A stretch of 64,000 bases of DNA from Candidatus Pelagisphaera phototrophica (GTDB taxonomy: Bacteria; Verrucomicrobiota; Verrucomicrobiia; Opitutales; Opitutaceae). Shown piece by piece: positions 41,186 through 43,967 of the stretch (position 1 is its first letter; every line of letters starts with the position of its first letter). Position numbers and translations under genes: made by a program. The notes under the pieces are model-generated. The model was given only the letters and a program-made list of their open reading frames with translations. It made no database searches and was not told where the DNA came from. The stretch lies in the NCBI RefSeq assembly GCF_014529625.1, contig NZ_CP076039.1:1240001-1304000 (forward strand), in the 5' to 3' direction.

Positions 41186-41418
41186 AACATTTCGAAAAAA
41201 ACTGCCCCAGTCGATATCGCCCAGAGCATGTCGCATTGGCACCTGCCAGCGGCGACCGTGATTGATTACGATCGACCAAGTTTTACTAGCGAGCGATTTG
41301 GCCACCCAAGCGGGCTTCTGGAAAAACTAGGGATTTCGAAAGGGAAGACAACTTTTGGACACATTGAATGTTTGTTTGGTCTTCCCGACGCGAAACTAGC
41401 GGTTTTAATAAGGATAGG

Positions 41419-42504
41419 ATGGGGGTCATTACTAACTATCAAGAGATTCTTAATCGGATTGTTCGCGTGGATCCGGTGGCATATGGTCGGACCCGGAATT
41501 TCATCGATGGGGCGGTCACCAAGCTTTCTCCTTATATCTCAAGAGGTGTCATCTCAACCAGACAAGTCTTTCGTGCGGTAACGGAGCGCGGGATTGAACC
41601 CAGGAAAATCGGAAAGTTTATTCAGGAGCTCGCATGGAGAGATTACTGGCAGCAGGTATGGATTGCCAACGGTAGTGAGATCAATCAGGACCTGCGGCGC
41701 GAACAGCCGAACATTTGTCACTATAAAATCCCGAAAGCCCTTGTCGAGGCGAGCACAGGTATCAGTGCTATCGACGACGGCCTAAATGAATTTTACGAGA
41801 CGGGGTATTTGCATAATCACGTTAGGATGTATGTCGCGTCCATTGCGTGTAATGTGGGGGGAAGCCACTGGCGGGTGCCGGCTCGGTGGATGTACTACCA
41901 TCTCTTGGACGGTGACTGGGCCAGCAACGCACTGAGCTGGCAGTGGGTGTCTGGATCCAATGCGGGTAAGAAGTACTACGCCAATCAGAAAAATATAAAC
42001 AAGTATTGTCGCACCCACCAAAAAGGGACCTTTTTGGACGTGGATTATGGGAGTTTAGAAAAAGCGGAAATTCCCGAAATTCTTCGAGAAAGAACAGTTC
42101 CCAGGCTGGAAACACCCTTGCCGGAAAAGAGAAGCATCGAAATTGACCCTGAACTGCCCACTTTGATCTACAATTTCTACAACCTTGATCCGAAATGGCA
42201 TGAGGAGGCGAACTTCAATAGGGTCTTGCTGATGGAGCCCTCCGTTTACAAGGCGTATCCAATATCCAGTAACTCCATGGAATTTATGCTCGGGTTGTCA
42301 GAAAACATTAAGGGAATTCAATGCTACGTGGGGGAGTTTGACGAACTGGTTGAAACATATAGTATCCGAGAGGCGGTTTTCAAAGAACATCCACTCAACC
42401 AATACAGTGGCAGAGAGGAGCCTCGTGACTGGATGTTTGAGGTTACGGGATATTACAAGTCGTTTTTCGCGTTCTGGAAGAAGTGCCAAGGAGAGCTGAA
42501 GTAA
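41419..42504 (+). CDS. Photolyase-like FAD-binding-domain protein (no antenna domain)
   Basis: 361 residues from ATG 41419 ([20 protein letters not shown]), with AGGAT just upstream; the longer upstream frame is non-coding. It has only the FAD-binding half of the cryptochrome/photolyase family: [76 protein letters not shown]. The N-terminal alpha/beta antenna domain is absent. The ending is longer than the family core (about residues 230-361) and unidentified. It stops TAA at 42502-42504, overlapping the ATG of the next photolyase gene by one base, so the two are translationally coupled. Could be a partner or regulatory flavoprotein; repair activity is uncertain. Confidence 0.82.
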
Positions 42505-43967
42505 TGGAGGCCATTAATCTCGTCTGGCTCAAACGCGACCTCAGGACGCAAGACCACGCCCCCTTCAATGCAGCGGAAAAGGATGGTCTCCCGTACTATC
42601 CGATATATATCTTCGAGCCATCCCTGTCGGCTCACCCCGACGCATCACTGAGGCACCAGCAGTTTGCTTATCATTCGGCACTCGTGCTGAATGATGAGCT
42701 TCTCAAATACAATCGTCGCGTGGAATTGCTTTTCGGTGAAGCGGAGGAAATATTTCGATCCATCGCTAGCAAATTTGTGATCGGAAAGGTTTTCTCGTAC
42801 CAGGAAACAGGCGTAGAGCTCACATGGAAGCGCGACAAGAAAGTGAACGCGTTTTTTCAAGAGAAAGGAATAGTTTGGAAGCAATTTCAGCGAGACGGTA
42901 TTGTTAGAGGCATTACGAATCGCGATGGTTGGGACAAAAACTGGTTTACCACCATGAATGAGCCAGTGCTCAAAAACACCTACTCCGTCTCTGGCGTTAA
43001 ACCACTTGCCCATTTTTTTTCTTGGCCAGACGATTTCAGAAGTCAACTGGAGGCCTATCCCACTGTCTTTCAACCGGCTGGAGAAAAAAGCGGATGGCGC
43101 AGCTTGAAGTCATTCGCGAACGAGCGAGGATTCGATTACAGCAAGCACATTTCCAAGCCCCAGCAAAGCAGCGTTTCAGGAGGTCGTATTTCTCCCTATC
43201 TCGCCTGGGGAAGTTTAAGCATCAAACAGGCCTATCAGCACGTCAAAAACCATGAGAAGTACGGTTCGAACAAACGACCGTTCGGGGCCTTTCTCATACG
43301 ACTCAAATGGCATTGCCACTTCATCCAAAAGTTTGAAGTGGAATGCGAATACGAACATACCTGTATCAATCGGGGATATGAATTGCTTTCCCGCGAGAGC
43401 GACCCAGCGAAACTCAGTGCGTGGCGGAAAGGTCGGACGGGGTTTCCCATGGTGGATGCCTGTATGCGGAGCGTATCCCAGACGGGATGGATCAACTTCC
43501 GCATGCGCGCAATGCTGGTTTCTTTTCTCTGCCACCACTTGGATCAGGATTGGCGGAAAGGGGTTTATCACTTGGCTCGACAGTTCTTGGACTACGAGCC
43601 AGGAATTCACTACCCGCAGTTCCAAATGCAGGCGGGTACAACAGGTATCAATACGATTAGAATCTACAATCCAGTAAAGCAAAGTAAGGATCATGATCCG
43701 TGCGGGACGTTCATCAAAAAATGGGTCAAGGAGCTGAAAAATGTTCCTGCGGAGTATATCCATGAACCTTGGCTGATGACTGGTATGGAACAGCAATTGT
43801 GCGGATTCAAAATGGGCAGGGACTATCCACATCCTGTAGTAGACCTCCAGGAAAGCGCAAAGAAAGCACGTAGCAAGATATGGGGGCATCGTAAAAATTT
43901 GACTGTAAAAAAGGAGAACAACCGAATTCTCGCGATGCACACTCGCTCCAACGTTCGAACTCCGTGA
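42504..43967 (+). CDS. DNA photolyase / cryptochrome family protein
   Basis: 487 residues from ATG 42504. The N-terminal photolyase alpha/beta domain begins [20 protein letters not shown] and shows PIYIFEPS and [17 protein letters not shown]. The FAD-binding C-domain has [80 protein letters not shown] and [15 protein letters not shown]. The length is normal. Known: such enzymes repair UV dimers with blue light, or sense light; the clade with [10 protein letters not shown] is seen in many marine bacteria, and its activity has not been settled for this group. TAATG overlap with the preceding gene implies coordinated expression. Confidence 0.9.

Follow-up and report, generated by a model that had tools for sequence, protein, structure and literature searches.

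Overlapping genes for a compact FAD-first photolyase relative and a photolyase-like protein with a non-canonical active site in Candidatus Pelagisphaera phototrophica

Described systems and layout of the gene pair

The NewPHL photolyases are reportedly the subject of Emmerich 2020. Proteins with the FAD domain first and a second domain at the C-terminus form a described class, comprising NewPHL/SPL and Phr7 (PMC9426592, PMC13274461). The NewPHL of Dinoroseobacter shibae has a reported Trp dyad (PMC8948257), and the dyad occurs together with a conserved N5 Asn in NewPHL (PMC8948257, PMC12083526). Comparable gene arrangements are also known. At Synechococcus phr4/phr5 and phr6, a FAD-first gene is followed directly by a photolyase-domain gene, as at the locus described here (PMC9426592). 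The operon of Synechococcus PCC 7335 likewise holds two overlapping photolyase genes, there co-transcribed and induced by UV-B; the protein encoded downstream, a PhrSph98 homologue, retains E310, W314, N384, M388 and N412 (PMC9649867). Both inverted photolyases (PMC9426592, PMC13274461) and two-photolyase operons (PMC9649867) are already in print. Our literature search, outside of which most subscription papers fell, returned no account of the pocket found here in the second protein or of the gene cluster described below, no paper naming DUF2256 together with a photolyase and no paper on a flavobacterial pair.

The window considered here is a 64,000-nucleotide stretch of the Candidatus Pelagisphaera phototrophica genome. 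An initial annotation had noted two photolyase-related genes joined by TAATG, and we confirmed both open reading frames and their overlap. The features of the pair are as follows.

41410..41414, forward strand: AAGGA, Shine-Dalgarno-like, 5' of ATG 41419 (sequence; putative function)
41419..42504, forward strand: gene 1 (short), photolyase family, 361 aa, NewPHL-like, FAD domain first (ORF, Pfam, alignment, AF2, tree)
41617..42006, forward strand: PF03441 match, short protein residues 67-196 (Pfam, E 3.7e-23)
42154..42501, forward strand: C-terminal alpha/beta domain, short protein residues ~246-361 (AF2 model, no Pfam match)
42488..42493, forward strand: AAGGAG, Shine-Dalgarno-like, within the short gene and 5' of the full gene (sequence; putative function)
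42502..42506, forward strand: TAATG stop/start overlap with one shared base (sequence; putative coupling)
42504..43967, forward strand: gene 2 (full), photolyase-like, 487 aa, non-canonical active site (ORF, Pfam, alignment, fold comparison)
42519..42905, forward strand: PF00875 match, full protein residues 6-134 (Pfam)
43293..43880, forward strand: PF03441 match, full protein residues 264-459 (Pfam, E 6e-68)
43608..43610, forward strand: codon for His369 of the full protein, at the E. coli Asn378 position (alignment)

The short gene is assigned a start at ATG 41419, and a further in-frame ATG lies upstream at 41368. Translational coupling of the short and full genes at TAATG is probable. The dN/dS ratio is ∼0.14-0.20 for the short gene (0.042/0.213 against the related locus L005 and 0.0525/0.375 against L006) and ∼0.09-0.11 for the full gene (0.0202/0.189 and 0.0264/0.292, respectively), values that indicate purifying selection on both. 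Near-full-length homologues of both proteins are present in other phyla, and this, together with the low dN/dS, argues that the pair is more than two chance open reading frames. A recent foreign origin was rejected on base composition, the G+C content of the pair (0.487) being ordinary for the window. At an E-value of 0.001, the host genome (one contig, 4.09 Mb) contains four PF03441 matches: a class I-type photolyase, the two proteins of the pair and a DPRP-type protein.

The short protein and the inverted photolyases

Residues were numbered by alignment to E. coli Phr, which we take to be the numbering used in the literature, and 84 distinct short-family rows were compared, the identical L056 and L087 being counted once. 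Equivalents of E274, W277, N341, M345, W359, N378 and W382 are found in all 84 rows and that of W384 in 83, and position W306 has no aligned residue in any row. By this alignment, the short protein retains the CPD-repair residues examined and a Trp dyad. Its FAD-site residues also align with those of E. coli Phr, which bears out the earlier observation that FAD-site blocks are kept.

The short protein had been described as a photolyase relative without an antenna domain. A Pfam scan found no PF00875 match in it, N-terminal or otherwise, but the description was incomplete, because the FAD domain comes first and a second domain follows at the C-terminus, the layout of the NewPHL class. The C-terminal region, noted earlier as an extra segment of no assigned identity, is indeed without a Pfam match, but it is confidently predicted as an alpha/beta domain in the AF2 model (mean pLDDT of the model 94.4).

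The N-terminal part of the short family is readily related to FAD-first proteins. We chose 15 such proteins of 390-464 aa for comparison, a set that includes no sequence of any tested NewPHL, and the short-family profile matched theirs over columns 3-251 with a probability of 100 and an E-value of 9e-41 (hhalign). When the short model was compared with photolyases in VIA-align, only residues 1-224 were matched, with the best result for 7ykn (Z 15.6, rmsd 2.8, 219 residues aligned). The C-terminus of the short protein, where NewPHL has its Z-domain, did not align with the C-termini of the 15 FAD-first proteins (hhalign probability 6.5).

In a tree built without tested NewPHL proteins, the short family forms its own clade (18 rows, support 100/99), with an inverted Deinococcus protein nearest to it (90/74) and the FAD-first set (15 rows, 100/99) beside it. 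The deeper order of the tree is unsafe because the program warns of long branches. The short protein shares with NewPHL/SPL the FAD domain in first position, an extra C-terminal domain, the Trp dyad, the N5 Asn and the CPD-site residues. It differs in its length of 361 aa, below the 390-464 aa of the comparison set, in a C-terminal domain that cannot be aligned by profile, in its separate 100/99 clade and in its usual position beside the cluster genes described below. We therefore class the short protein as NewPHL-like, most likely a smaller relative of these inverted photolyases, rather than as a proven member. Since the C-terminal domains of the short and FAD-first proteins do not align, its family could be a sister class to NewPHL.

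We also considered whether the C-terminal domain could be of the antenna type. The domain had no Pfam match in the window protein, and the C-termini of other family members gave only weak, scattered ones (best E 0.009, in one member); a PDB profile search with the domain gave no matches up to E 10. Against the N-domain of gene 2, the hhalign score of 23.4 was equalled or exceeded by 2 of 200 column shuffles; against DPRP N-domains, the score of 17.3 fell below the best of 30 shuffles. By eye, the strands and helices aligned between the short C-terminal domain and the gene 2 N-domain agree with the two AF2 models. With no firm match from Pfam, the PDB profiles or the hhalign shuffles, homology to an antenna-type domain is unproven and we did not adopt this assignment.

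Two Deinococcus plasmids carry FAD-first arrangements of their own. In Deinococcus sp. QL22 (L162:2339-3630), an open reading frame of 257 aa for a FAD domain overlaps a separate one of 173 aa; by analogy with Synechococcus phr4/phr5, these may be an inverted photolyase split into two genes. In Deinococcus sp. AJ005 (L121:2875-4245), a weak PF00875 match (E 7e-4, short of the Pfam cut-off) comes after the FAD domain, and this protein is possibly an inverted photolyase with a recognizable C-terminal photolyase-type domain.

The full protein: photolyase fold and altered pocket

The full protein had been taken for a full-length photolyase. As to architecture this holds: Pfam identifies PF00875 and PF03441, and its AF2 model (mean pLDDT 91.1) has the two-domain photolyase fold over nearly the whole length, with Foldseek TM scores of 0.83-0.84 (0.84 to 1np7) and a structural match to 2e0i of Z 39.1 and rmsd 2.2 over 421 aligned residues. 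It shares this fold, at 24-27% identity, with class I/III CPD photolyases and CRY-DASH (4u63, 1np7, 2e0i). The canonical active-site residues, however, are absent. At E274, N341, M345, N378 and W384 the window protein has R, F, A, H and M, in place of the class I CPD active site, and at the Trp triad positions W306, W359 and W382 it has R, W and F.

These substitutions are characteristic of the whole family, for which 84 distinct members were compared (88 collected, 4 duplicates dropped). Y222, R236, S238 and W277 are present in 84/84 members and R344 and D372 in 83/84, and the alignment indicates that residues serving the phosphates and ribose of FAD are retained. E274 is replaced by R in 83 members and by S in one. 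The family has F at N341, M at W384 and H at N378, a site that faces flavin N5 in E. coli Phr and corresponds to His369 of the full protein (each in 83/84, with a gap in L026). M345 is replaced by A in 81 members and S in 2, and D374 by E in 82 and V in one. Position W382 is occupied by F in 62 members, L in 10, I in 5, V in 4, and M and T in one each, with Trp in none of the 83 aligned members; W306 is mainly H (42) or K (10), with Trp in 2 of 84; and W359 is kept in 82 of 84. The register of the alignment is backed by ∼30 ungapped columns between gene 2 and 1np7. With no Trp at 382 and almost none at 306, the usual photoreduction chain is broken in gene 2. Judged from these residues, the pocket has been uniformly re-tooled and has not decayed. 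PMC12083526 lists just three substitutes for the N5 Asn, namely Asp, Cys and water, and His is absent from that list.

The family lies on a very long, fully supported branch of the tree (26 rows, 100/100, length 3.32), and its hosts are Bacteroidota, Verrucomicrobiota, Vibrionaceae, Tritonibacter, Duffyella and Deinococcus, Gamma- and Alphaproteobacteria thus being included. Unlike class I/III CPD photolyases and CRY-DASH, its members have neither the class I catalytic residues nor the proximal electron-transfer Trp. Several closer identifications were rejected. The N-terminal domain is PF00875 and not PF04244, which excludes a FeS-BCP or DPRP. Synechococcus Phr5 lacks a FAD domain and Phr4 has Fe-S cysteines (PMC9426592), whereas gene 2 has both photolyase domains, and its PF03441 match (E 6e-68) rules out a Phr5-like half of a split photolyase. 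Compared by role rather than by joint alignment with the PhrSph98 homologue of PCC 7335 (PMC9649867), the family replaces all of the same-role class I residues except the Trp, and without the N5 Asn and the Glu, Asn and Met lesion residues it is not assigned to the PhrSph98-type bifunctional photolyases. A C-terminal fusion on gene 2 in G447 proved to be nothing but a short tail. At L026:5086-6520, a gene-2 copy broken by a frame change adjoins an intact short gene.

Gene neighbourhood and the role of the pair

The neighbourhood of the short gene was compared in 84 loci (83 distinct), comprising the best 80 of 571 relatives, 3 loci from the window's order and 1 plasmid. Because 80 of them are the nearest of the 571 relatives, the set is biased to close kin; within it, gene 1 is immediately followed by gene 2 in 50 of the 83 distinct loci, so the linkage is conserved in other genomes. 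The common gene order, with families named by HMM from one representative each, is TIGR03643 - short - full - flavin reductase - DUF2256 - DPRP, and members are absent from many loci (present among the 83: TIGR03643 58, full 54, flavin reductase 41, DUF2256 61, DPRP 59). The complete set occurs in 16/84 loci and the set without the full gene in another 16/84. In 80/84 loci some cluster member follows the short gene on the same strand at <250 bases: the full gene in 51, flavin reductase in 18, DUF2256 in 8 and DPRP in 3. The window is among the 13/84 loci, some on short contigs, in which only the short and full genes are found; in its host genome, the DPRP gene maps to 0.605 Mb, and DUF2256 shares a site at 2.075 Mb with a TIGR03643-type gene.

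Short homologues with E <1e-100 occur in 4 of 177 genomes of the window's order, its own included, and none of the others belongs to the window's own family. Both window genes are nearest in the tree to L005 and to the Bacteroidota loci L010 and L007. This points to, but does not prove, a transfer of the two genes together between phyla. The small proteins TIGR03643/DUF2805 and DUF2256 recur beside several kinds of photolyase (L046:3675-3965, L084:5081-5212), and by eye DUF2256 has the CxxC...CxxxC look of a zinc ribbon.

Gene 2 is also found away from gene 1. We examined 20 of the 36 Bacteroidota gene-2 regions, of which 2 also hold the short gene and 18 do not. The latter contain DUF2256 (12), a class I-type photolyase (9), TIGR03643 (5) or DPRP (2); five (L163, L176, L179, L181 and L182) have none of these neighbours except for a weak 27% match in L163. 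L141 and L142 have a short gene elsewhere in the genome. In L178, L180, L141 and L142, the aligned part of the class I-type gene ends 32-47 bases 5' of gene 2. Outside the Bacteroidota, the Salinivibrio and Tritonibacter members abut DUF2256, a Vibrio member adjoins a flavin reductase, and L096, from the window's order, has a FAD-first gene, DUF2256 and gene 2 together.

The initial annotation had suggested that the two proteins could make up a two-component flavoprotein unit for light repair or light sensing. Of 247 Bacteroidota genomes searched at an E-value cut-off of 1e-60, 17 have the short gene, 36 the full gene and 5 both. Chance would give 2.5 genomes with both (Fisher p 0.08); p is 0.18 when the centre genome, itself picked because it has the pair, is left out. 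The two genes are <2 kb apart in 3 of these 5. Among 33 genomes with an unlinked short gene, a partner-family protein of at least 40% identity was found in 9 and none in 24, assembly gaps being a possible factor. Over 26 common loci, the distance correlation is 0.884 for short-full, 0.891 for short-DPRP and 0.928 for full-DPRP, and the short-gene tree (85 rows) shows at least 15 changes of linkage state. A dedicated complex is therefore not supported, because each gene often occurs without the other and their co-divergence is no tighter than that of other cluster genes. Together, the correlations, linkage changes and co-occurrence indicate that the cluster behaves as a unit within which the pair is not special.

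The reading that we favour, with somewhat better than even confidence, is that the pair belongs to a set of photorepair genes widespread in bacteria, in which the short protein would be an active inverted photolyase and the full protein a conserved photolyase-like accessory, the two genes probably being translationally coupled. This reverses the roles first assigned to the two proteins, since the short protein is the likely working enzyme and gene 2 the odd one. The N-terminal domain of the short protein would bind FAD, and its FADH-, excited by blue or UV-A light, would split cyclobutane dimers by electron transfer, probably in single-stranded DNA; the small C-terminal alpha/beta domain would cover the flavin side. 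The full protein, whose AF2 model contains no ligand, would bind flavin or a nucleotide. Its rewired pocket, with His at N5, Arg for the catalytic Glu and no proximal Trp, makes standard CPD repair by this protein improbable. The neighbourhood and the residue loss point to an accessory role: the full protein would probably serve as an accessory or a sensor, or act on another lesion, beside an active photolyase, DUF2256 and flavin reductase, and it would help the adjoining photolyases.

An unlikely but serious contender is that the full protein is itself an active photoenzyme for another lesion, such as a dimer that is deaminated or modified in some other way, in which case His/Arg chemistry would stand in for Asn/Glu. 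The uniform, undegraded substitutions from Bacteroidota and Verrucomicrobiota to Gamma- and Alphaproteobacteria and Deinococcus, and the dN/dS of about 0.1, are consistent with this. In addition, a plasmid of Deinococcus proteolyticus encodes a gene-2 fusion with a UDG-superfamily domain at its C-terminus (L118:4001-6274), the one checked of 6 among 30 listed plasmid matches, all 6 from Deinococcus, that are labelled uracil-DNA glycosylase. Cytosine in dimers deaminates to uracil, and the fusion therefore hints at deaminated-cytosine dimers. The broken photoreduction chain, however, argues against a photoenzyme. A broader version, which we hold just as tentatively, is that gene 2 represents an undescribed photolyase/cryptochrome class, defined by the invariant His at N5 and the Arg for the catalytic Glu, that might act with DUF2256 and flavin reductase in light- or flavin-dependent repair of lesions beyond the reach of ordinary photolyases.

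Cryptochromes have the photolyase fold but lack repair activity, and conservation near DUF2256 and other small proteins would suit a cryptochrome-like sensor of blue light in control of the repair cluster, but the proximal electron-transfer Trp is absent and a Pfam scan of the protein found no third domain as a possible output, which makes this reading improbable. Least probable is a dedicated two-subunit photoenzyme, in which the full protein would supply the antenna domain and DNA grip and the short protein the catalytic flavin: the overlapping genes in fixed order, their grouping with the same relatives (L005, L010, L007) and the loss of the full protein's own catalytic residues would fit, but the many unlinked short genes without a partner, the 31 of 36 partner-holding Bacteroidota genomes without the short gene, the 15 linkage changes and the lack of excess co-divergence make it very doubtful.

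Many records label gene-2 family proteins as photolyases, yet these do not have the class I photolyase residues. If the favoured reading of the pair as part of a photorepair gene set is confirmed, photolyase counts in marine bacteria would include a protein of another function, and DUF2256, TIGR03643 and flavin reductase would gain a testable setting in UV repair.
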